20,278 bases of DNA, from IMG/VR virus record IMGVR_UViG_3300043786_000118, positions 1 through 20,278 of that record, one strand, 5' to 3'. Shown in pieces: positions 1 to 20,112 of the stretch (its first letter is position 1; each line of letters begins with the position of its first letter). The position numbers and the translations under genes are program-made. The stretch is from a virus. The notes below the pieces were generated by a model. The model was not told where the DNA came from. It did not search any database and saw only the letters and a program-made list of their open reading frames with translations.

Positions 1-3000
1 GGTTTTCTCCATTAGGACCAAGAAGTGATACAAGTTTGCCGCTAACAAGCGCTGGTATTTCATAACTTCCAAGTTCTTCTCCAAGGGCTGCAGCAATACT
101 TCTTGCTTGGCTTGTTGTTACTGCACCTTGAGCAACTGCTACTGCTAAGTTATTGGCTAAATTTTGAGATATTTGCTTAATAGATTGACCATTTTTAGAT
201 TGAATTTCTATATCTGCAAGTATTTGTTTTCCAAATTCACTACCCAATACATTTTGTCCAAATTGCCTTTGTCCCTCAACTGTTCCAGAAACGATATTCT
301 TTCTTCTTCTAGCAGCCTCTTCACTTGCGCTAACAGTTCCAGATATTACAGATAGATCAACAATTTTCTTTGAAGTCATACTCATTGCATTAGAAAGATT
401 AATTCCTTCTTGCCTTGCTTTTTCCATGTCTTTTGACATCTTATATAATGTTCCACCAACCAAAGCAATTGCTGCTACTGCTGCAACCCATGGATTTGCA
501 AGCATTGGAAGTAATGCAACTATACCTTGTAATCCAAAAACAAATGGCATTATTGTTTGAGCCATTTCTCCTAATTTACCGCCAGCAAAAGATGCTGCAA
601 TTGTAAGTCCAGAAACTGCACCTATACCAAGACTTGCCTTTGAACTAAACTCTGATAACTTTTGCTTTGTTGTCTTTTGAGCCTCTGTAGACTCATTCAT
701 TGCATTTGTTAGTTTGCCTTCTGCTGCTATACGTCTTTTGGCTTCTTTTAAACTTATTTTTTCTACCGCTGCCAACAACTGTGCACGAGATAGTCTTGCT
801 GATTGGGATACTTCTCCCATTGTTGTGCTTCCAGTTTTTGGATCAACTTGTGGTGCATTTGCAAACCCACGAAGTCTTCGGATTCTTTGAACTACAGTTT
901 CGTTTGGATTAAGTGTTGTTGTTCTATTGTCTGAAACATTTCTACTTGTTGTTTGAATGGATGCTGGTTTTCTTTCGGTGTTTTGTCCAGTTAGTGGGGT
1001 TAAATTACCCTTTGCGTCAACCTTGTACTCTCCTCTTGCTCTAACAGCAACAGTTTCTTTTTGAGGTTGTTTACCAATTAATCTATCAAAACGATCATTC
1101 ATTGATTTAGTAATTTTAAGAACTTGTCTTCCTCCACCAAGGAACTCTCTTTGTGATTTAAACTTACCATCAATTAGTCCATTAATTACGTTATTCTTTG
1201 TAATTTTTCCACCTGTTATTTCAGGTCTGCGGTAAGCAACAATTTCACCTTTATCATTTAAACTGGTTGGAATTAATAGTTTTGGATCAATTGCTTTCAA
1301 TTCATTTAATTTTTTAACTAATATTGGATTTGAATTAGTTTTTTGTACAGCCTTAATAACATCATCAATTGATTTTAATTTATCTGTTTTAATGCTTGAT
1401 CCACCAACAGCACTTGTAGATGCTGCACCAAGCAAGGTTCTTGCTGATCTAGATACAATTGGGTCTGCAGATTTTGCAAGAGCACCCATGATTCCAGACC
1501 TTTCATTACCCATTCTAGAATAAATCATCTTGTCATTAATTAAAGCATTATCTGGTAAAGAATTTAAAGATTTTAATAAATTAGTTCTAATTTCTTTTGC
1601 AACTCTAAGCGCATCTGTATCTGGAATTCCCTGCTTAGAAAGACTTATTGTCATTGTTCTTAAAGAGTTATCATCAAGAATTGCTCGTCTATATTCTCCA
1701 GCAGTAACTGTTGAATTTTTTCTATTTAGTTGCCCATTCATTTCTTTAGGAATATCAAACCCAACAGCAGTGTATAGGTTTTCTCTTCCAAAACCAAGTT
1801 TTCTAAACTGCTCTGAAACCTTTGTTCCAGAAATCTGTTTATGATCTACAGCATGTCCAAATACTAGGTTTGATTTTGTTTGAGATTTTGCCCCTTGCAT
1901 TCTTGCGAGAAGTGCTGCGTTTCTTGCAGCAAAGGCTTCGTTGGTTTCTGTAAATGCTGATTTGCCCAAAAGAAGACTATTTATTTGGCTTGGGTTAGTA
2001 TTAAGAACTTGTGCTGAAGGCCCACTAAGATCCATCTTTGGTTGGAACTTTGGAGAGTTAGCAAATGGTTGTGCATCTCCAGTTCCAGTTCCAAATGCCT
2101 GAAGTTTACCGCCAAGCAATGCTTCAATAATTGGCTGGACTTGTGGATTTTGTGCAATGTCTGTTGGAATTACCGCTTCTCCAGGCATAAGCACTGCAGG
2201 AACATTATCTTTGTTACCTCTTCCTGGTACAGATGCAGTTCCTCTTGCAAATTTCTTTGGTGCCCCGCCTCTGCCAGGCATCATCATTCCTGGATTTGTT
2301 CTTGCAAAGTTGGCTGCAGCGACTGTTGCATCAATATATGCTTGACGAAGTGCTCTTACAGCAGATGCCTCAATATTAAATTGTTGTGTGAGTCTATTAT
2401 GTGCTTGGTTTAATGATGCTGCTACTGTTGCAGCCTCTAGTTGCTCTACCGATAAATAGTTTGTTTGTTCTGCAAGAATTTTGCTATTTCCACCAAGTTT
2501 TAAAAATCCTGTACGCATTATTGCAAATAGTTTTATTCCGTTTGCTACTGCGTTCATTAATAAACCAAAAGTCATTAATAATACTGGACCAATAATTCCA
2601 ACCAGCGTTGTTGCAACTACAATAAACTTCTTTGTGCCATCTCCAAGATTATTAAACTTATCTAGCAAACCTGCAACTGATTGTGCAATTGGTGTTACTG
2701 CCTCTAAAAATGTTTTGCCAACTGGTTCAAGTGTTAATCTAAGATCCTCAATTGCTTTTTTAAACTTAGTTCCAACTGCATCCTCTAAAACTCCAAGTTC
2801 TCTTTCAGACATAATTGCAAGTTGTTCAACAGAATTTGTTGTTAATCCAAGAACTTTTGCAGCCTGTGTTCCGTCTTTTGTTACGTTTTGAAACAATGTT
2901 GATAAACGTGAGAACTGAAACTTACCAAATAACTGCTCAATTGCACGAGCACGATTAAGTGGGTCTAGAGTATCCAGCGCTCTTGAAAAGTCAATAACTG

Positions 3001-4252
3001 TACTCTTAATATCACCCTGATTACCTTCAACAATTGCTTTGATATTAATTCCCATATCTGCAAGCATTTCAGATGCTTTTTTAGTTGGATTAATGAGTGA
3101 TGCTAAACCAGACTTAAGTGCGTTAGCACCTTCTGATGCATTGATTCCGCCTTCTTTCATTGCTGTTAAAAAGAATGCTAAATCTTCAACATCTCCACCA
3201 AGTTGTTTTACAACTGGACCTGCTTTAGGAATTGCAATAGTTAAATCTTCAATAGATACGACTGTTTGGTTTTCAACTGCGTTAAGGAAGTTAATCTTTT
3301 TTGCCAAATCTTCTGCTGCTGTACCAAATGCGTTTGTAATAGATATAGTTGTTTCTAGAGCCTGTCCTTGCTCTACACCACCAAGAACTGCAAGTCTTGT
3401 TGCTTGGGCTACCTGCGCTGTAAGTTCTGCACCAGTCTTACCCATTGCTGCAGCATCTGCTGCCATCTTCATCGTATCTACAACTGCAATTCCATACTTA
3501 GTAAATGATTCTGCAAGTTGTCTTACATTTTCAAGAGCCTCATTTGTTTGTTCTGTTGTTGTAAATATATCTCCATATACACGCTTAAACCTGATGGCTT
3601 GTGCTTCAAGATCCATAAAAGTTTTTCCAGCAACAGTTCCAAGATAGGCAAGAGGAATTGTAAAACCAACCATAAGTTGGCGACCTGCCCACTGTGTATT
3701 TTTACCAAAGTTTAAAAGATTTGTAGATCCTTGTTTTACTAACTGATTGAATAATGCTTGCTTTTGTGCTGCTAATGCAACCTGTGTTCCGTAGTCTTTC
3801 ATATTTAGGCTAGTTGGAGTAACAGAGATAGCCTTCATTGCACCGCTTGCATCACGGCCTAACTTAATATATTGTGTTTGTAATCTTTTTACACGATCTT
3901 GTGCTACTTTGCCAATTGTGTCAAATTCTGATTTAAATAATCTTCCAAATGTTTTTGTAGATCCGCCAGCATAACGGAAATATTCCCGCATTGAAAGTTT
4001 GTTTTTTTCAAGAGCATTTGTGAAAGATTCTGTGGATGTTCTAACGACACCCATCTGTGCTGAGAATTTACCAGTAGCATTTATTGAGTTCAGCAGATTC
4101 TGCTGCATGTTTCTTTGTTGAGCAGCAGCAGAAGCACTACCCTTTGATACCGAAGTATGGAATAGTGCTAACTGTCGCTGTAAACTTTTAAGTTCCGCTA
4201 ACGCCTGCGACGTATCAATTTGTACGCCAATTTTGGCATTAACATCACTCAT
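1..4252 (-). CDS. Tape measure protein, C-terminus beyond the window
   Basis: The tape measure sets tail length and is threaded inside the tail tube during assembly. The frame is open from ATG 4252 to the left edge, at least 1417 codons, and no stop is reached. Residues about 195-400 look like the TP901-1 type phage tail domain. Strongly hydrophobic stretches lie near residues 540-580 and 1227-1274, the second containing LLPMLANPWVAAVAAIALVG. Around residues 672-697 is the glycine-rich motif VPGRGNKDNVPAVLMPGEAVIP-like segment, in which DNVPAVLMPGEAVIP recalls a motif recurrent in tape measures. The start follows GAGGTG with about five bases between and lies 15 bases after the short chaperone gene, the usual neighbour. 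At roughly 1.5 angstrom per residue (a general rule for the family) the visible part would span over 200 nm of tail. Function is confident from size, content and position; the true length is unknown. Confidence 0.93.
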   Translation of the reverse strand, partial: MSDVNAKIGVQIDTSQALAELKSLQRQLALFHTSVSKGSASAAAQQRNMQQNLLNSINATGKFSAQMGVVRTSTESFTNALEKNKLSMREYFRYAGGSTKTFGRLFKSEFDTIGKVAQDRVKRLQTQYIKLGRDASGAMKAISVTPTSLNMKDYGTQVALAAQKQALFNQLVKQGSTNLLNFGKNTQWAGRQLMVGFTIPLAYLGTVAGKTFMDLEAQAIRFKRVYGDIFTTTEQTNEALENVRQLAESFTKYGIAVVDTMKMAADAAAMGKTGAELTAQVAQATRLAVLGGVEQGQALETTISITNAFGTAAEDLAKKINFLNAVENQTVVSIEDLTIAIPKAGPVVKQLGGDVEDLAFFLTAMKEGGINASEGANALKSGLASLINPTKKASEMLADMGINIKAIVEGNQGDIKSTVIDFSRALDTLDPLNRARAIEQLFGKFQFSRLSTLFQNVTKDGTQAAKVLGLTTNSVEQLAIMSERELGVLEDAVGTKFKKAIEDLRLTLEPVGKTFLEAVTPIAQSVAGLLDKFNNLGDGTKKFIVVATTLVGIIGPVLLMTFGLLMNAVANGIKLFAIMRTGFLKLGGNSKILAEQTNYLSVEQLEAATVAASLNQAHNRLTQQFNIEASAVRALRQAYIDATVAAANFARTNPGMMMPGRGGAPKKFARGTASVPGRGNKDNVPAVLMPGEAVIPTDIAQNPQVQPIIEALLGGKLQAFGTGTGDAQPFANSPKFQPKMDLSGPSAQVLNTNPSQINSLLLGKSAFTETNEAFAARNAALLARMQGAKSQTKSNLVFGHAVDHKQISGTKVSEQFRKLGFGRENLYTAVGFDIPKEMNGQLNRKNSTVTAGEYRRAILDDNSLRTMTISLSKQGIPDTDALRVAKEIRTNLLKSLNSLPDNALINDKMIYSRMGNERSGIMGALAKSADPIVSRSARTLLGAASTSAVGGSSIKTDKLKSIDDVIKAVQKTNSNPILVKKLNELKAIDPKLLIPTSLNDKGEIVAYRRPEITGGKITKNNVINGLIDGKFKSQREFLGGGRQVLKITKSMNDRFDRLIGKQPQKETVAVRARGEYKVDAKGNLTPLTGQNTERKPASIQTTSRNVSDNRTTTLNPNETVVQRIRRLRGFANAPQVDPKTGSTTMGEVSQSARLSRAQLLAAVEKISLKEAKRRIAAEGKLTNAMNESTEAQKTTKQKLSEFSSKASLGIGAVSGLTIAASFAGGKLGEMAQTIMPFVFGLQGIVALLPMLANPWVAAVAAIALVGGTLYKMSKDMEKARQEGINLSNAMSMTSKKIVDLSVISGTVSASEEAARRRKNIVSGTVEGQRQFGQNVLGSEFGKQILADIEIQSKNGQSIKQISQNLANNLAVAVAQGAVTTSQARSIAAALGEELGSYEIPALVSGKLVSLLGPNGEN

Positions 4253-4267
4253 TTGTCACCTCATTGT

Positions 4268-4600
4268 TTAATTGTTTGCAAGAACTGTGTTCAAGAGTGC
4301 ATTTGCATCTTGAAGTTTTACCCCTGAAGCAGATTCAATAATCTTATAAACAGTTGGAAGATCAATATTCTCTTCTAACTTTTTAGCATCATCTGCAATT
4401 TCTGGCTTATATTGCTTCATAGCAATTTGAACACAATCAATAAGGACAGTCGTTGACTTGTCATTATCTTCTGCCACCTCTGCTAGTTCTGAAAACTTCT
4501 TCATAAATGGACGAAGTAATGAGATTTTAAGCGGTCTTGCCTTAATCTTTGTACCGTCCAAAAGAACTAGTTCTACCTCTTCATACGTGCTTGTTGCCAT
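4268..4600 (-). CDS. Short tail-assembly chaperone (gpG-like)
   Basis: This 110-residue acidic protein is placed directly before the tape measure, where phages encode the chaperones that coat the tape measure while the tube polymerises. Its whole length resembles the first ~95 residues of the 231-residue protein at 5382-6077, with exact shared blocks DGT, PLKI and IAMKQY and a similar helical pattern ending in S-A/S-G-x-K. It would be the equivalent of lambda gpG, the short product. There is no downstream open frame for a gpT-like extension, because the tape measure starts 15 bases after the stop, so a frameshift product from this gene is not expected. AGGAGG lies eight bases before the ATG, and a good promoter lies just upstream. 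The role is inferred from position and paralogy, since sequence conservation in this family is low. Confidence 0.78.
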   Translation of the reverse strand: MATSTYEEVELVLLDGTKIKARPLKISLLRPFMKKFSELAEVAEDNDKSTTVLIDCVQIAMKQYKPEIADDAKKLEENIDLPTVYKIIESASGVKLQDANALLNTVLANN

Positions 4601-4627
4601 TGATTTTTCCTCCTATAGGCTATGTTA

Positions 4628-4658
4628 ATTATATCATGTAAGGGCCTTATTTTTACAA
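4628..4658 (-). promoter_or_regulatory. Extended -10 promoter for short chaperone and tape measure
   Basis: On the minus strand TGATATAAT occupies 4636-4628: a perfect TATAAT with the TGn extension. A weaker -35-like TTGTAA lies at 4658-4653, with a long 19-base spacer. Inside the spacer is an 11-base near-palindrome, TAAGGCCCTTA (4649-4639). Transcription would start about 20 bases before the start codon, which also has a strong ribosome binding site. The promoter lies between the methyltransferase stop and the short chaperone start, so it could raise expression of the chaperone and tape measure independently of the genes before them. Confidence 0.6.
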
Positions 4659-4705
4659 GTATTTTTAATGCCTTAAATGCCTAAAAAACTAAATATGGGA
4701 GGTAA

Positions 4706-5353
4706 TTAAATAAAGGGGTCTATTTTTTCTAAAACAAAAAACCAGCCTAGGCAGTTTTCATAATTCTTGTTTAGTTCGTGCACTATTTCTTTTACATATT
4801 TTATATGAAATAAGCCAGAGGATGGTAATTCTACTGCTGAGATGTTTATGGCATCTGGTGTGGTATATCTGTTATTTTTATTATTTAGATTACCAGAAAT
4901 TAAAATTGCCTTTCCACCAGGCTTTAGCCTTGAGTACAAAATTTTAAAATAAGTATTTATTATATCTAAATTATTATGAAAACAACCCCTATCATATATA
5001 AGATCATATTTTTTGTCTGGCAAATCAAAGTGTAAATCTCCCACAATAAATTCTACGTTATTTCTACCGACATTATTTTCCTTAGCAATATTTATTGCAA
5101 CCTCAGATACATCTATGGCAGTTACGCTTTTTGCTTTTTTTGATAAGAATAATGTATCATTTCCAGACCCACATCCAAGTTCAAGAACATCATATTCTTC
5201 AATATTATTTTGATTTACAAATTCTTCCAAATTTTTATCATAGGTATACGTTTCCCATGGCAATTCTTTTGTACTATTTTTACTAACATATGAATGGTTT
5301 CCAGCCCAAACTGAATCCCAAAAGCCTTTTTTCATTTTTTTAGTTTTTTCCAT
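4706..5353 (-). CDS. Class I SAM-dependent methyltransferase (TehB/TPMT-like)
   Basis: The 215-residue protein has the Rossmann methyltransferase signature. Motif I is VLELGCGSGN at residues 56-65, the acidic ribose-binding residue is D81 in TAIDVS, and motif III is GDLHFD at 105-110, followed by YDRGCFHN (120-127) and LKPGG. The tryptophans near residues 12-16 and LPWE at 31-34, together with YDRGCFHN, resemble small-molecule methyltransferases of the TehB/thiopurine type rather than DNA methyltransferases; I see no DPPY-type motif. The substrate is unknown. It sits between two paralogous tail chaperone genes, where a methyltransferase has no obvious assembly role, so it looks like an inserted accessory gene (a moron). 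Two sample lines counted by hand give about 28% G+C, against about 47% for one line of the capsid gene, consistent with a separate origin. Confidence 0.88.
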   Translation of the reverse strand: MEKTKKMKKGFWDSVWAGNHSYVSKNSTKELPWETYTYDKNLEEFVNQNNIEEYDVLELGCGSGNDTLFLSKKAKSVTAIDVSEVAINIAKENNVGRNNVEFIVGDLHFDLPDKKYDLIYDRGCFHNNLDIINTYFKILYSRLKPGGKAILISGNLNNKNNRYTTPDAINISAVELPSSGLFHIKYVKEIVHELNKNYENCLGWFFVLEKIDPFI

Positions 5354-5359
5354 TCTTAT

Positions 5360-5368
5360 AGTTTATCA
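5360..5368 (-). promoter_or_regulatory. Possible leaderless promoter of the methyltransferase
   Basis: TGATAAACT at 5368-5360 has the TGn extension and a TAnnnT box (four of six bases match TATAAT). Only six bases separate it from the ATG, so transcription would begin at or next to the start codon. No Shine-Dalgarno is present before this start. The box is weaker than the other promoters in the window, so this is tentative. Confidence 0.3.
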
Positions 5369-5381
5369 CATACCTATTATT

Positions 5382-6077
5382 TTATTTTGTCAAATCTTCA
5401 TACTCTAATCCCATGCCAATACCAAACCCTGCTTTTTTAGCATTTTGTCCTTGGAGTGCCAAGATGTCTTTACTATCATTTGTTGCACCTTTGCTAAATA
5501 CTCTAGCCTTCATATCTTCCCACTCCTTTTGGCCTCGTGACGATCCAGACTGTTTGTCTAAATCTACCCCTTGAATTGCAGCAAGAAATTTTTTTTCTTC
5601 GTAATCAAGTTCTCTACGACTAGAAAGTGTAGCCATTAACTCTGGCATAGATAAAGACTCTTCTAACTCCTTATAATCTTTCCAAATACCCAATAAAAAT
5701 GCTTCAGCCTCAATTTTTGCTAAGTCTAAATCAGACCAGGTTGATCCACTCTCTGTTGCCTGAGTTTTAACAGTTTCCTCTGATCCCCTGTTTATTTTTA
5801 TTCCTGCTGAAACATCTAAAATTGTATATATTGTGGGCATATCAAAACTATCTTCTATGTCATCTTTTTTTAACGCTATTCCTGGATAATATTGCTTCAT
5901 AGCAATCCTAACACATTCCATTAAGCAATCTATTGCTTGGTCATCGTCCTCGGCCTTTTTTACATTTTCAAAAGCCTCCATAAACTCACGAAGATATTTT
6001 ATTTTTAATGGAATAATCTCTAGTTCTGTTCCATCAATAAGATTTATTACTTTATTTTGATAAACTGTTGTTGCCAT
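5382..6077 (-). CDS. Long tail-assembly chaperone (gpGT-like natural fusion)
   Basis: The 231-residue protein has two parts. Residues 1-95 are paralogous to the short chaperone at 4268-4600. Residues about 110-231 are an extra C-terminal region with helices around SMPELMATLSSRRELDYEEK and FLAAIQGVDLD, similar in style to the gpT-like half of long tail chaperones in actinophages. In most siphoviruses the long form is made by a programmed frameshift; here it is one continuous frame. It is the first gene after the tail-tube terminator. The ATG has no Shine-Dalgarno and lies nine bases from an extended -10 box, suggesting a near-leaderless message. Domain assignment is by eye, and the role rests on position and paralogy. 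Confidence 0.72.
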   Translation of the reverse strand: MATTVYQNKVINLIDGTELEIIPLKIKYLREFMEAFENVKKAEDDDQAIDCLMECVRIAMKQYYPGIALKKDDIEDSFDMPTIYTILDVSAGIKINRGSEETVKTQATESGSTWSDLDLAKIEAEAFLLGIWKDYKELEESLSMPELMATLSSRRELDYEEKKFLAAIQGVDLDKQSGSSRGQKEWEDMKARVFSKGATNDSKDILALQGQNAKKAGFGIGMGLEYEDLTK

Positions 6078-6086
6078 GATTTATCT

Positions 6087-6095
6087 ATTCTATCA
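6087..6095 (-). promoter_or_regulatory. Extended -10 promoter of the long chaperone
   Basis: TGATAGAAT at 6095-6087 (TGn plus TAGAAT, five of six consensus bases) lies just after the tail-tube terminator and nine bases before the ATG. With a normal -10 to start distance the message would have about 0-3 leader bases, matching the absence of a ribosome binding site. Confidence 0.5.
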
Positions 6096-6104
6096 TAGGC
6101 AAAA

Positions 6105-6137
6105 GAAAAAACCCACCTCATAAGAGATGGGCTTTTG
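6105..6137 (-). terminator. Rho-independent terminator after the major tail protein
   Basis: On the minus strand CCCATCTC, loop TTAT, GAGGTGGG form an eight-pair stem with one G-U pair, followed by TTTTTTCTTTT. Flanking A and U runs can lengthen the stem. On the plus strand the wobble becomes a C-A mismatch, so the hairpin favours minus-strand transcripts. A second small inverted repeat (6142-6157) overlaps the tail protein stop codon. Confidence 0.85.
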
Positions 6138-6155: not shown

Positions 6156-6788
6156 TTATGATTGACCAAATGTACGATCTACGATCTTACCGTATGATCC
6201 TGACGCATCTTCTGGAAGAAGACGGAATGAAACTTCAAACATTGACGCTTCGTCACGCTTTGCGGATACAGTTACGTTCTCAATTGATAGAGCACGATAT
6301 GCTGTGTAAACACGCTCAACAGAGTCAGAGTTGTCGCAATCTCCAGTTCCTGGTCCAACAGCAACGATTCCTCGTTCTACTGGACATTCTCCAAGTTCAC
6401 CTGCAGATAGATTAAGTGTCTGACCTGTAGATGCTGCCTTGTTTCCTGTAAGTTGTGCATCAGAAAATGCTAATGCAAGAAGCAAGTTTTCTAGTGTTGC
6501 TTCAGCAAAAGCGGTAGCAAGATTAACCTGCATACCTTGCTTATATAGTTTTGCAACGTCAAGAATTTGGTCTACCTGGACTTCACCGAAGTCTGGTTGG
6601 AACTGCAATTCTAGACCGTTCATGGTGTAACCTATGTTAGTGTAATCTGCTTCATCTGAAAGTGTATCTTTAAAAGACTCACTTGCGTCAAAAGCCTCCA
6701 GTGTACCTGGAGTTAGAGTTGTATCAGCAACGAAAAGTGCTGCTGCACCAACGATAATGTTGTTTGACGTACCACGGCTATATGGCAT
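6156..6788 (-). CDS. Major tail tube protein
   Basis: The 210-residue protein polymerises into the tail tube through which DNA passes. It has the composition and size of siphovirus tube proteins: mostly beta-type sequence, the early segment RGTSNNIIVGAAALFVAD, the central ALENLLLAL-like helix (TLENLLLALAF), and a C-terminal strand region FEVSFRLLPEDASGSYGKIV. It follows the tail terminator gene and precedes the chaperones and tape measure, the standard place for this gene. AGAGGTGA precedes the start with normal spacing, and a TATAAT box lies about 60 bases upstream. It is directly followed by a strong terminator, in keeping with high expression of a protein needed in hundreds of copies. No family motif is diagnostic, so the call rests mainly on order and composition. 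Confidence 0.8.
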   Translation of the reverse strand: MPYSRGTSNNIIVGAAALFVADTTLTPGTLEAFDASESFKDTLSDEADYTNIGYTMNGLELQFQPDFGEVQVDQILDVAKLYKQGMQVNLATAFAEATLENLLLALAFSDAQLTGNKAASTGQTLNLSAGELGECPVERGIVAVGPGTGDCDNSDSVERVYTAYRALSIENVTVSAKRDEASMFEVSFRLLPEDASGSYGKIVDRTFGQS

Positions 6789-11195: not shown

Positions 11196-11771
11196 TTAGT
11201 TAAATAGGTCGGTTGATGTGAGGAAACGACCGCCCCATAGGGATTTTTGAACCACTTGTGGTGATTCCTGTACGATCTCGCCTAGATCGCCAGACTTGCG
11301 GAAAGCGGTATCTTGCTCTACAAGATCTACTCGCTTGCCAAACTCGTTAAAGTTATTCTTGATACCGTTAACATCTGATGTTACTGCATCAAGAGATTTT
11401 GTTACTGCTGTTACCTTCTCATTAAGAGATTTGATAGTTGCAGCAAGATCGCCAAAGGCATTAGTAAGAGAAGTATTAATTTCTGAAACTGCCTTGGCAA
11501 CTTCTTCTTTAACATCTGCAATAGATTTTTCCACTACATTCTCTACTTCAACTGCTGCTTTTGCAGCAGAAGATTCTGCACCACCATCATCCGATTTAGC
11601 AACAGCAAGTTCTTCAACTACTGGTGCTTCTTCAGCGACTGCAGGAGTTTCTGCTGTTTCTGCAACAACCTCTGTTGTTACGTCTGCTGCTACTTCTGCT
11701 GGCTGTGCCTCTGGAGCAATCTCTGCATTTTCAACTGCAGTTTCTACAACTGCTTCTGTTGATTCTGTCAT
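11196..11771 (-). CDS. Nested scaffold protein from an internal start
   Basis: ATG at 11771 (Met254 of the protease gene, same frame) is preceded by AGGAGG with an eight-base spacer, among the best ribosome binding sites in the window. It would yield a 191-residue protein made only of the Ala/Glu-rich segment and the coiled coil, with no protease residues. This is the arrangement of lambda C and Nu3, in which a scaffold is translated from inside the protease gene so that scaffold far outnumbers protease. The site and frame are seen directly; actual use is inferred. Confidence 0.75.
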   Translation of the reverse strand: MTESTEAVVETAVENAEIAPEAQPAEVAADVTTEVVAETAETPAVAEEAPVVEELAVAKSDDGGAESSAAKAAVEVENVVEKSIADVKEEVAKAVSEINTSLTNAFGDLAATIKSLNEKVTAVTKSLDAVTSDVNGIKNNFNEFGKRVDLVEQDTAFRKSGDLGEIVQESPQVVQKSLWGGRFLTSTDLFN

Positions 11772-12530
11772 TTGATTTACCTCCTTAGTAATCTTAATTG
11801 TATTAATGCCTTTAGCACTATCAACTAAGAATTTTATCATTTCTGCATTATCTTTATCATTCTTTTCTATAAAACCAATATTTTGCATTTTGTTTCCAGT
11901 TACTGGACTTGTTACTGAGTCAGAATCTGAAACCATAACAATACCGTTTTCTGAATCCCAAAATACATTTTCAATTTCTGTTTTTGATAAGTATCCATCT
12001 ACTACGTTTTGTCCATTTACCTTTTCAATAGATAAAATATTTGCAAATTGGTTTGCTGGATTATCTACAAGAGATAACTCATGTAGTTCATATGTTTTGA
12101 TTACACGAATTGTTTTATCAATTTTTTCATCATAAGCATCATCCCAAGTCTTTATGTTGCCACCAATTGAAAATCCAGTGTATGTTCCATCTAAAACTTT
12201 TTCCCAAGCATCTTGTGCACCTTTAGAAACATACGCAGATACGTAAACTCCACTATAAAACTTTTTGTCATTTGGATCAAAATATTTATCTTCTTTAAAA
12301 GAAACAATCTTTCCTACTGCGCTGGGCTGATGCATTTCACGAAGATTGCCACGGAAGTTTTTAAAAGCCTCTACACTAGATTCTGTTGTAACTATGTCGC
12401 CTTGACGATCAACATTATCAAGCGTAGCAAAGCCAGACACCATACGGCGTTCAACATCCACTTTTCCAATGGGCATTGAAAGGCGAACATTGTCACCTTT
12501 AGTTTCCCAATGAGCCTTGTTTATTAACAT
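11196..12530 (-). CDS. Prohead protease (XkdF/S78-like) fused to scaffold domain
   Basis: The 444-residue product joins a capsid maturation protease to a scaffold. Residues 1-170 form the serine protease domain: H67 in REMHQPSAVG, S121 in GFSIGG and the conserved strand ELSLVDNPAN at 151-160; His and Ser sit close to the catalytic positions known for HK97 gp4. Residues about 255-330 are Ala/Glu/Val-rich and probably disordered, residues 330-410 are a heptad-patterned coiled coil, and the end (SLWGGRFLTSTDLFN) may contact capsid protein. The start has no Shine-Dalgarno and lies nine bases from an extended -10 box, suggesting a near-leaderless message. A second start inside the gene would release the scaffold alone. 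It lies between portal and capsid genes, the expected place. Confidence 0.9.
   Translation of the reverse strand: MLINKAHWETKGDNVRLSMPIGKVDVERRMVSGFATLDNVDRQGDIVTTESSVEAFKNFRGNLREMHQPSAVGKIVSFKEDKYFDPNDKKFYSGVYVSAYVSKGAQDAWEKVLDGTYTGFSIGGNIKTWDDAYDEKIDKTIRVIKTYELHELSLVDNPANQFANILSIEKVNGQNVVDGYLSKTEIENVFWDSENGIVMVSDSDSVTSPVTGNKMQNIGFIEKNDKDNAEMIKFLVDSAKGINTIKITKEVNQMTESTEAVVETAVENAEIAPEAQPAEVAADVTTEVVAETAETPAVAEEAPVVEELAVAKSDDGGAESSAAKAAVEVENVVEKSIADVKEEVAKAVSEINTSLTNAFGDLAATIKSLNEKVTAVTKSLDAVTSDVNGIKNNFNEFGKRVDLVEQDTAFRKSGDLGEIVQESPQVVQKSLWGGRFLTSTDLFN
11780..11785 (-). promoter_or_regulatory. Strong internal Shine-Dalgarno for nested scaffold
   Basis: AGGAGG (11785-11780, within AAGGAGGT) lies inside the protease/scaffold coding region, eight bases before an in-frame ATG. 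The protease's own start has no such site, so scaffold translation should exceed protease translation. Confidence 0.8.
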
Positions 12531-18081: not shown

Positions 18082-20112
18082 CTAATATAATTTAATCTCA
18101 CATGCATCTGTAGAACAATATTTTTCAGACTCTGCATCAAGATTATCCTTGCCATCATAAATAGCAGACCAATCAATTTTACCAATTTTACCAACATAAG
18201 AGTTATATTCTTCTCTTGTAATATTTGTATATGGTTGTTGAGGATAAGTTTTATTACCCATAGGCAAAAATGAAACTGCCTTTAATTGACCTTCATGCAT
18301 GTGTAATGCTGGAGCAATGTGCTTGGTTTCAGATTCCTTGTCAAATGACAAAGTTACAGATACTCCATTATCAGACCAATATTTTTGAGCGGTAGCAGCC
18401 AAACCAATCTTTTCAAAAAGACTTACATCTTTTTCAGAACGAGGATGTCCAGATGCTACTGGGAAATATACTACTGAAGTGTTTGCTGATACTACGTCAT
18501 CTTCAATTCTATACCCTGCTGCTTTAAATAAATGCATCATTGGGTCTGTATTTCCAAACCTTATAGCACGAAGATAGAACTCTCCTCCTGGACCCCAATG
18601 AACTCCTGGTGTTGCACCAGATAACAATGAAACAGAGCCTGAAGGTTTGACGGTAGTTACACGAATTGATTCACGTACACATAGCCATTCTGAGTATGTG
18701 TGATCATATGAACGAATCTTTTTATACCCTTCGTCCATCCACTCACGAATAATTGGCATACCCTTTTTATCTGCAAAAGATGCAATGCCAGTAAGTGATG
18801 TTCCAATACGACGATTACGTTGCATGATTCCATTTGTAGTTTGCCAATGTGTTGGCATAAGCGTAACAGTCTTGCCGTATAAGTAAGCAAACTTTAATGT
18901 ACGTAAAAAGTCTTCTTTATTTTCATGACGATTTAGATGAACTTCTACAAGTGTGCATAATTCATAACTTTCCAATGGTTGTTCAGCGCATGGATTGAAT
19001 CCCATAACACGAGAATCTTTATAATCTGGAGCGTCTGCTAATCTTCCATAATCTCTAGCAACATCTAGCCAAATAAATCCTGGCTCCCCATTGTCTGCAA
19101 TTAAGTCAACATAGTCTTCATACTTTGTTCCAACCTCTGCAGAAATAGAATTATTAGACATCCAAGCCCATCCTGGATTCTCTGAATCAAATGAATTTCT
19201 ATCTGGAAAAACCTCTGCATTTTTTAAATTAATAAAATCTTTGTCTTCAGCATTTCCTAAAGCCAAGGTAGCAGAACGACGAACATTACCAGAAACAACG
19301 CATGTACCAATAAGGTTTACAATGTCTACTATTGCACGAGAATCAAGAGTTTCTCCTGATCTACCGCCAATTACTTTGTCTATCTTACTGTGTAATGCAA
19401 TCAGTGGTGCTGGACCGCTAGCCACCCCACCAAAGCCTTTTATTGGGGCTCCTAGAGGACGGATAAGGTCATAGTTAAACTTTTGTATAGCCTGATTAGG
19501 TCGTAGGTATGAATTTAAAAGCATTCTTACTGAGTCAACCCAACCTTCACGAGTGTCTGGGATTTCCCATACATTTTCTGGCTCTGTTGGAGCATAGATA
19601 GGCATTTCTTTGTCTTGACCGACGGTATCAAACCCTACACCAATACCCAGCATTAATGCATCCATTACCCATGCAAATAAGGCTCCTGGATCATTGCGAT
19701 CAAGGTCACGAGTTGATACCATTGCACAATTTTGAAGGGATGCTGAGTTACGCTTCTCCATAGTCATAGGAGTTCCAAATGCCCAGAGACCACGACCTGG
19801 TGGTGTCCACTTTAGTTCAAACATTCTCTGAAAGGCTTCTTGTGCAGACTTCTGTGCTTTGTTGTCGTTCCATGGAAGTCTATTATCTTTAGCGTGGTTC
19901 TTTTGTACTGAGTACATTCCTTCAATTACCCGCTTGCAAACCTCATGCCATCTTTCCTTTGTTCCATCTTCTTTCATCCGAGAGTAGGTACGTATAAAGG
20001 TAATTTCTCCTAAAGAGTTTGATCCAGCATCTGAAAAGCCAAACGGGGCTGGTACCTCAGTATATTTATTTACAAACTCATCTGACAAACGAAAAGAAAA
20101 GATATCTGACAT
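18082..20112 (-). CDS. nrdJ: Adenosylcobalamin-dependent (class II) ribonucleotide reductase, monomeric type
   Basis: This 676-residue enzyme reduces ribonucleotides (triphosphates in the monomeric RTPR type) to deoxyribonucleotides using coenzyme B12, supplying building blocks for phage DNA. All key residues of the Lactobacillus leichmannii enzyme can be placed: C129 in LQNCAMVSTRD and C386 in LESYELC (the disulfide pair), the radical cysteine C375 within NPCAEQ, with N373 and E377, the phosphate-binding VKPSGSVSLLSGATPG loop, and the C-terminal C666-x4-C671 that re-reduces the active site. It is shorter than the 739-residue reference: 43 residues fewer between the first and catalytic cysteines and 32 fewer before the tail. 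Host or environmental cobalamin would be needed. It has its own terminator-promoter pair upstream and only a weak GGAA site. Confidence 0.95.
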   Translation of the reverse strand: MSDIFSFRLSDEFVNKYTEVPAPFGFSDAGSNSLGEITFIRTYSRMKEDGTKERWHEVCKRVIEGMYSVQKNHAKDNRLPWNDNKAQKSAQEAFQRMFELKWTPPGRGLWAFGTPMTMEKRNSASLQNCAMVSTRDLDRNDPGALFAWVMDALMLGIGVGFDTVGQDKEMPIYAPTEPENVWEIPDTREGWVDSVRMLLNSYLRPNQAIQKFNYDLIRPLGAPIKGFGGVASGPAPLIALHSKIDKVIGGRSGETLDSRAIVDIVNLIGTCVVSGNVRRSATLALGNAEDKDFINLKNAEVFPDRNSFDSENPGWAWMSNNSISAEVGTKYEDYVDLIADNGEPGFIWLDVARDYGRLADAPDYKDSRVMGFNPCAEQPLESYELCTLVEVHLNRHENKEDFLRTLKFAYLYGKTVTLMPTHWQTTNGIMQRNRRIGTSLTGIASFADKKGMPIIREWMDEGYKKIRSYDHTYSEWLCVRESIRVTTVKPSGSVSLLSGATPGVHWGPGGEFYLRAIRFGNTDPMMHLFKAAGYRIEDDVVSANTSVVYFPVASGHPRSEKDVSLFEKIGLAATAQKYWSDNGVSVTLSFDKESETKHIAPALHMHEGQLKAVSFLPMGNKTYPQQPYTNITREEYNSYVGKIGKIDWSAIYDGKDNLDAESEKYCSTDACEIKLY

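Follow-up and report, generated by a model that had tools for sequence, protein, structure and literature searches.

The DNA considered here, called the window throughout, is an entire IMG/VR record of 20,278 bases (IMGVR_UViG_3300043786_000118) from an unisolated phage, and our subject is a pair of genes in it, SHORT and LONG, that appear to encode its tail assembly chaperones. The structural genes lie on the minus strand in the order portal, other head genes, major tail protein (MTP), LONG, S-adenosylmethionine (SAM) methyltransferase, SHORT and tape measure. In most long-tailed phages a short and a long tail chaperone are made from one gene by way of a ribosomal frameshift, and this G/GT frameshift is a textbook example of recoding that fixes a protein ratio. 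A preliminary description of the window had proposed that the two forms are here encoded by separate genes, and two separate open reading frames (ORFs) are indeed present:

4268..4600, minus strand: SHORT, putative tail assembly chaperone, gpG-like, 110 amino acids
5382..6077, minus strand: LONG, putative tail assembly chaperone, 231 amino acids, with a G-like domain (residues 1–96) fused in frame to a T-like domain (residues ~112–231)

Two related chaperone genes

The relatedness of the two N-termini, claimed from inspection in the preliminary description, is borne out by BLASTP, which aligns SHORT 1–96 with LONG 1–95 at 41/96 identical residues (43%) and 68/96 positive (E 9e-27). DGT, PLKI and IAMKQY appear in this alignment as exact blocks. 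The 18 bases said to be shared between 4409–4426 and 5889–5906 are likewise identical, and no longer exact match was found between the two genes. The in-frame C-terminal domain that had been noted in LONG is the T-like domain. The tape-measure start codon, at 4252, lies 15 bases past the SHORT stop, and the -1 and +1 frames there contain several stops, in agreement with the earlier claim that there is no room for a frameshifted extension.

The identification of these genes as chaperones rests on their position, on homology to annotated genes and on their frameshift-type relatives. Both lie between the major tail protein and the tape measure, an order that is the same in all relatives' loci reaching both neighbours. 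In translated searches (tblastn) SHORT matches an annotated Streptomyces-phage tail assembly chaperone (LukeCage gene 58, E 3e-17), and LONG matches annotated Streptomyces-phage chaperones in Circinus (gene 34, E 8e-29) and Targaryen (genes 58 and 59, E 7e-24). Profile matches of LONG are to phrog_10504 (residues 1–102) and phrog_10474 (residues 131–222); the former, a family without a stated function, is found in 32/32 rows of one alignment (A5), and phrog_1932, a PHROG named tail assembly chaperone, gives weak matches in 5/32 rows (best E 0.0011). Pfam gave no match for SHORT and two weak ones for LONG, below the cut-off (DUF4778 and TetR_C_12), neither of them a chaperone family; NCBIfam gave no match for 20 LONG rows, and a fold search of the PDB with SHORT and with LONG (mean predicted local distance difference test score, pLDDT, of the LONG model 70.0) gave no match at E <= 0.001. 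Among 10 pairs of two-gene loci dN/dS is 0.02–0.36 for all three parts, with 0.02–0.08 for the T domain of LONG.

The layout among relatives

Loci were gathered in four scans of viral contigs, three of which gave the best 80 by similarity to the query. In all loci but L004 and L005 the plus-strand ORFs, taken from stop to stop, were then searched with profiles of G, T, MTP and tape measure. The layout of the window, that is major tail protein, LONG, SHORT and tape measure, recurs in 199 fetched loci; this figure includes pieces of one contig fetched twice and, like the other counts given here, does not measure prevalence, the loci having been chosen by similarity. Each of the 199 contains exactly two G domains. 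Without identical copies and without loci in which LONG lies <60 bases from a contig end there are 134 distinct LONG-SHORT sequences, to which the fractions of 134 below refer. LONG and SHORT are 26–69 bases apart in 99/104 sequences of the first survey, and SHORT and the tape measure are 15–25 bases apart in 102/102.

A further 46 loci, cultured Streptomyces phages among them, have a single G gene overlapped by T in a different frame, and the shift is -1 in all 39 distinct one-G loci printed. In a phage collection LONG matches 127 Streptomyces-phage records, at one place each and always at <60% identity; in 20 rows among the LONG matches listed the match is joined from two pieces, a G gene and a separate T ORF. 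Eight odd loci belong to neither layout, seven of them cut by contig ends. The eighth, L149, has a LONG gene that a short repeat beside a T-run interrupts at 5227–5971, probably through an assembly error. Its broken LONG next to SHORT had been considered as a transitional form, and this was ruled out, as the break is such a repeat within a single small contig.

Slippery site and shifted frames

All 21 distinct uncultivated frameshift relatives carry an in-frame CCCAAAC/T near the end of G, and past their G stop the -1 frame runs on without a stop for a median of 110 codons. No SHORT gene (0/134) has CCCAAAC/T in frame within its last 20 codons; past the SHORT stop a stop codon closes the -1 frame after a median of 5 codons (maximum 18) and the +1 frame after a median of 2 (maximum 25). 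Thus, of the marks of a frameshift pair (one start, a slippery sequence and T in the -1 frame), SHORT lacks CCCAAAC/T and LONG has its T domain in frame. Among 18 distinct sequences of the Streptomyces-phage group, some of them metagenome contigs, 7 have CCCAAAT and the other 11 CCCGGAA, as printed. The C-termini can still be aligned (NDPNALAAALVGAN in one frameshift relative, QDANALLNTVLANN in the SHORT protein of the window), which places the former site as follows:

4301..4309, minus strand: position in SHORT matching the relatives' slippery site, GATGCAAAT where the relatives have GACCCAAAC

With this replacement the site holds no heptamer in SHORT. The lack of a slippery site may signal a two-gene chaperone and not a missed annotation.

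Start signals

The two genes begin with different signals:

6087..6095, minus strand: extended -10-like element of LONG, TGATAGAAT, ending 9 nucleotides before the ATG, with no Shine-Dalgarno sequence
4628..4636, minus strand: extended -10 element of SHORT, TGATATAAT, of the TGnTATAAT type
4609..4614, minus strand: Shine-Dalgarno sequence of SHORT, AGGAGG

The contrast holds across the relatives. LONG starts with ATG in 134/134, and TGnTAnnAT ends 6–9 nucleotides before it in 123/134 distinct loci (shuffled sequences: mean 0.6, maximum 4), the remaining 11 having close variants such as TGGTATACT. If A, C or G is admitted for the last A and the element may end 5–10 nucleotides before the ATG, all 134 conform, a figure that stands without a shuffle control and follows a widening made after the exceptions had been seen. 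A Shine-Dalgarno energy of <= -6 kcal occurs before LONG in 0/134. Upstream of SHORT, TGnTATAAT lies 18–37 nucleotides away in 134/134, and the Shine-Dalgarno sequence (median -10.2, <= -6 kcal in 131/134) is stronger than that of LONG in every one of the 134. The G genes of the uncultivated frameshift type resemble SHORT in this (TGnTATAAT in 20/21, Shine-Dalgarno in 21/21), and control MTP starts have the -10 element in 0/111 and a Shine-Dalgarno sequence in 108/111.

In Mycobacterium tuberculosis the -10 motif is reported to be centred 7–12 bases before the transcript start (PMC3898074), and in mycobacteria the presence of either an upstream -10 or a Shine-Dalgarno sequence is described as separating leaderless from leadered genes (PMC4633059). 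Because of this rule, as that paper presents it, we read LONG as probably translated from a leaderless mRNA and SHORT as not.

Codon use

The rare codons AUA and UUA divide the genes of the 134 loci. AUA makes up 23/1023 isoleucine codons in MTP and 41/1012 in SHORT, as against 930/1740 in the G half of LONG, 200/660 in its T half and 412/1387 in the N-terminal part of the tape measure; the corresponding UUA shares of leucine are 260/2443, 211/1821, 557/984, 836/2064 and 1134/3380. The combined AUA and UUA rate is lower in SHORT than in the G half of LONG in 134/134 loci and lower than in the T half in 132/134, and divergence at fourfold sites, taken over 746 non-independent pairs, is 0.154 for SHORT and 0.371 for LONG. 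In these codons SHORT is like the abundant MTP and LONG is not, which hints that SHORT is the abundant product; codon use alone is no proof of dosage.

Trees of the chaperone genes

A careful G-domain tree was built from 61 domains after thinning to 41 loci, with five long-branched loci (L184, L212, L235, L236 and L250) left out; these were kept in a larger G tree and in the T, MTP and tape-measure trees. In the careful tree, for which the bootstrap was not fully settled, LONG forms one clade (100/100) and SHORT forms one clade (98/88), and the order of SHORT and the frameshift G genes is not resolved. In the larger G tree 11/12 G genes of uncultivated frameshift phages fall in with SHORT (94). 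No long stem leads to the T domains of LONG, which group with those of the uncultivated frameshift phages, apart from the Streptomyces group (93).

Three loci of the frameshift layout, L193, L198 and L213, were compared with three frameshift and five two-gene loci. The tape measure of L193 and L198 is nested among those of two-gene phages (98), and the tape-measure N-termini of all three are 56–63% identical to two-gene phages and 34–46% to frameshift phages. Their T domains lean the other way (56–64% to two-gene, 66–75% to frameshift), as does MTP, which reaches 91% identity to a frameshift phage for L198 (with L196) and 84% for L193 (with L185); their G genes do not discriminate (63–68% to frameshift G, 61–71% to SHORT). 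We would describe these loci, from such comparisons, as mosaics that combine a frameshift layout and a frameshift-like MTP and T with a tape measure of the two-gene lineage. They are most simply explained by an exchange of the chaperone region, and a return to a single gene may be an alternative. Either way, the two layouts seem to go with related tape measures, an argument for their having one and the same function.

Neighbouring genes and features

The features that flank or separate the two genes are:

6156..6788, minus strand: MTP gene, 210 amino acids, the upstream neighbour of LONG
6106..6132, minus strand: terminator-like hairpin and T-run 3' of MTP, GCCCATCTC-TTAT-GAGGTGGG-TTTTTT
4706..5353, minus strand: SAM methyltransferase gene between LONG and SHORT, 215 amino acids (Methyltransf_25, E 4.7e-17)
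2..4252, minus strand: 5' part of the tape measure gene, which continues off the end of the record (PhageMin_Tail, E 5.4e-27; phrog_10030, E 8.5e-100)

The MTP product matches phrog_2175, 'protein with Ig domain' (E 4.6e-34), and more weakly phrog_885, major tail protein (E 0.0062), and major tail protein is the annotation at this position in relatives. A terminator-like hairpin between MTP and LONG is found in 130/130 measurable two-gene loci, in 43 stem variants, under a lax criterion that 236/650 shuffles also pass.

The methyltransferase, which the preliminary description does not mention, is a passenger, outside the chaperone system. It is present in the window and its nearest relatives (L006, L007, L008, L013, L087 and L088), and is probably a later insertion, because L009, whose LONG is 98% identical to that of the window, lacks it. 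The gap between LONG and SHORT exceeds 700 bases in 2/134 distinct loci (L006 and L051), each with a methyltransferase; that of L051 is a related gene at the same spot, so this gap may be a site of repeated insertion. The methyltransferase gene has a -10-like element of its own, TGATAAACT, ending 6 bases before the ATG. Farther off, the gene at 11196–12530 (minus strand), at the position of the relatives' capsid maturation protease, carries TGCTATAAT, whose end lies 9 bases upstream of the ATG, and lacks a clear Shine-Dalgarno sequence, so that other late genes of this phage may also use leaderless starts. A 676-amino-acid ORF at 18082–20112 (minus strand), beside the structural genes, has by eye the look of a ribonucleotide reductase. 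As to the host, 69 and 67 candidate stretches were found in genome contigs and none was confirmed as a relative; the sole hint is that relatives infect Streptomyces.

Discussion

We consider it quite likely, judging from gene order, homology and signals in the DNA, that the window holds a two-gene tail assembly chaperone, in which SHORT corresponds to gpG and LONG to gpGT and their ratio is set without frameshifting. It is informative to place this beside what is known of the frameshifting systems. In lambda, many copies of gpG and few of gpGT are described as binding the tape measure, and the T domain as recruiting the major tail protein (PMC5009743). TP901-1 is reported to stop assembling tails when gpG or gpT is lost, and to form particles that look intact and are non-infectious when the two are permanently fused (PMC4493119); fixation of the fusion would thus leave a phage in need of gpG from another gene. 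The system described here resembles the frameshifting gpG/gpGT of lambda, TP901-1, HK97 and many other long-tailed phages in its place between the major tail protein and the tape measure, and in having a short and a long form that have an N-terminal domain in common and a T domain in the long form only. It differs in that there are two genes with two starts, in that SHORT has neither slippery site nor -1 extension, and in that the common domain, which would be identical in a frameshift pair, has 43% identity between the two proteins of the window. A further close comparison is with Streptomyces phages of the Stanwilliamsviridae (BillNye, Circinus and Evy), which have homologues of both domains in the order MTP, G, T and tape measure. 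In their group, as here, MTP is followed by a hairpin and, in 15/18 distinct sequences, G is preceded by an extended -10; these phages differ in that G remains a single gene and T is read in the -1 frame.

How such a system might have arisen and work can be outlined. One chaperone unit would have been duplicated in tandem; one copy would have fixed a G–T fusion and become LONG, and the other would have lost T and become SHORT. SHORT would have kept the promoter and Shine-Dalgarno type of a frameshift-type G, without the slippery site and the T extension, and LONG would be gpGT as one uninterrupted gene, placed after the terminator-like hairpin of MTP and most likely expressed from a leaderless mRNA. 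Many copies of SHORT and few of LONG would be made, together they would coat the tape measure as gpG and gpGT of lambda do, and the ratio once set by frameshifting would now depend on the promoter, the way translation starts and the choice of codons. This is in essence the course suggested in the preliminary description, and it gains support from the relatives that keep T out of frame with a single G gene, from a SHORT gene that has lost both the slippery site and an open -1 frame, from a LONG gene with T in frame, and from G-domain trees with one LONG and one SHORT clade, although tests of tree topology leave the placement of LONG undecided. To that description the present analysis adds a layout common to 134 distinct sequences, opposite start signals on the two copies and a contrast in codon use. 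We put at about even the chance of the wider claim that a conserved recoding event was converted, probably once, to paralogues dosed at initiation, a leaderless LONG with many rare codons and a SHORT driven by its Shine-Dalgarno sequence and using codons as MTP does, with frameshift relatives surviving and the layouts seemingly exchanged between phages.

Several observations, besides the selection of loci by similarity, weigh against this picture. The G domain of LONG stands on a long stem (~1.4 changes per column) and is not paired with SHORT in free trees. Approximately unbiased (AU) tests do not reject any of three placements, namely a LONG+SHORT clade (p 0.317), SHORT joined to frameshift G (0.534) and LONG joined to the Streptomyces group (0.554). 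Trees of T, MTP and the tape measure do not bring the two-gene phages together as a single clade (2, 3 and 2 changes), and these genes alone therefore show no single origin. In the structural comparison the SHORT model (pLDDT 72.8) matches HK97 2ob9 with Z 4.1 over 88 residues (root-mean-square deviation 4.9), tied with unrelated chains, and by Foldseek 2ob9 ranks 15 (E 5.8). Dosage is also less clear-cut than the codon contrast suggests, in that the frameshift-type G, presumably abundant, is intermediate (AUA 28/205, UUA 106/286 of leucine and AGA 24/33 of arginine codons), and an MTP-based codon index gives SHORT 0.620, about the same as the tape measure (0.599), and LONG 0.51. Likewise, leaderless reporters in Mycobacterium smegmatis are said to be translated about as well as leadered mRNA (PMC4633059), and the mRNA:protein ratio in M. 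tuberculosis to show no overall difference between the two (PMC3898074), so leaderless need not mean scarce. Lastly, TTTAAAT or TTTAAAC (TTTAAAY) occurs in frame in 17/134 SHORT genes; it leads nowhere because the -1 frame is closed.

Some of these points may be read as favoring other histories. LONG could have come by recombination from a phage in which G and T were already fused, instead of being a resident duplicate; we think this unlikely. It would fit the failure of LONG to be the sister of SHORT in the larger free tree, where SHORT sides with frameshift G, and the disagreement among the MTP, T and tape-measure trees, which implies that the region recombines. However, the T domain of LONG lacks a long stem and keeps company with uncultivated frameshift T, a clade of LONG and SHORT is not rejected, and no outside donor was seen among the matches listed, nor in genome contigs. 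A second history, in which SHORT does most of the chaperoning and LONG now serves some different end, such as that of chaperone to a different tail protein, and the two thus form no gpG/gpGT set, strikes us as decidedly improbable. The stem of the LONG G half speaks for it, as does the divergence of SHORT and LONG within a phage, only ~32–43% identical end to end in 16/17 representatives (the 17th, at 31%, has its SHORT start set too late). Against it, the T domain of LONG is strongly constrained, two G domains are kept in every one of the 199 loci, and related tape measures occur with both layouts.

It might also be asked whether recoding persists, with SHORT still frameshifting or LONG yielding a short product by a shift. 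Apart from the TTTAAAY heptamers, an in-frame XXXYYYZ lies within LONG codons 85–125 in 10/134; the heptamers are not conserved, however, and with both shifted frames closed after SHORT and the tape measure 15–25 bases on, we regard residual recoding as very unlikely, and for SHORT as ruled out by the closed frames. That the layout is an artefact of assembly or annotation would be a natural worry for a window from an unisolated record, the more so given the broken LONG of L149, but 134 distinct LONG-SHORT sequences and the low dN/dS of both genes make this close to inconceivable, and the survey of relatives refutes it.

The two-gene chaperones of some T4-like phages were reportedly treated by Vladimirov, Gautam and Davidson in 2022, a work we know through a citing paper. 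A short chaperone gene and a separate in-frame fusion gene are described in some of these phages (PMC10885494), and a report on Pseudomonas phage Adele, which cites the work of 2022 as well, mentions slippery motifs in T4-like chaperone genes too. As far as such descriptions go, the two systems are alike in having a separate short gene and a separate in-frame fusion gene, and two-gene chaperones are thus not wholly new; no description of the layout in the present phage group was found among the literature matches listed. T4-like phages are another group, with contractile tails; the lineage here is related to the Stanwilliamsviridae, has frameshift-type relatives at hand and pairs a leaderless-like start with a Shine-Dalgarno start.

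If the two-gene reading of SHORT and LONG is right, related phages with and without the frameshift would form natural pairs in which to ask what frameshifting is for, be it the ratio, identical interfaces or timing. Why the G/GT frameshift persists would then become an approachable question in these phages, where the same problem appears to have been solved both ways by close relations.

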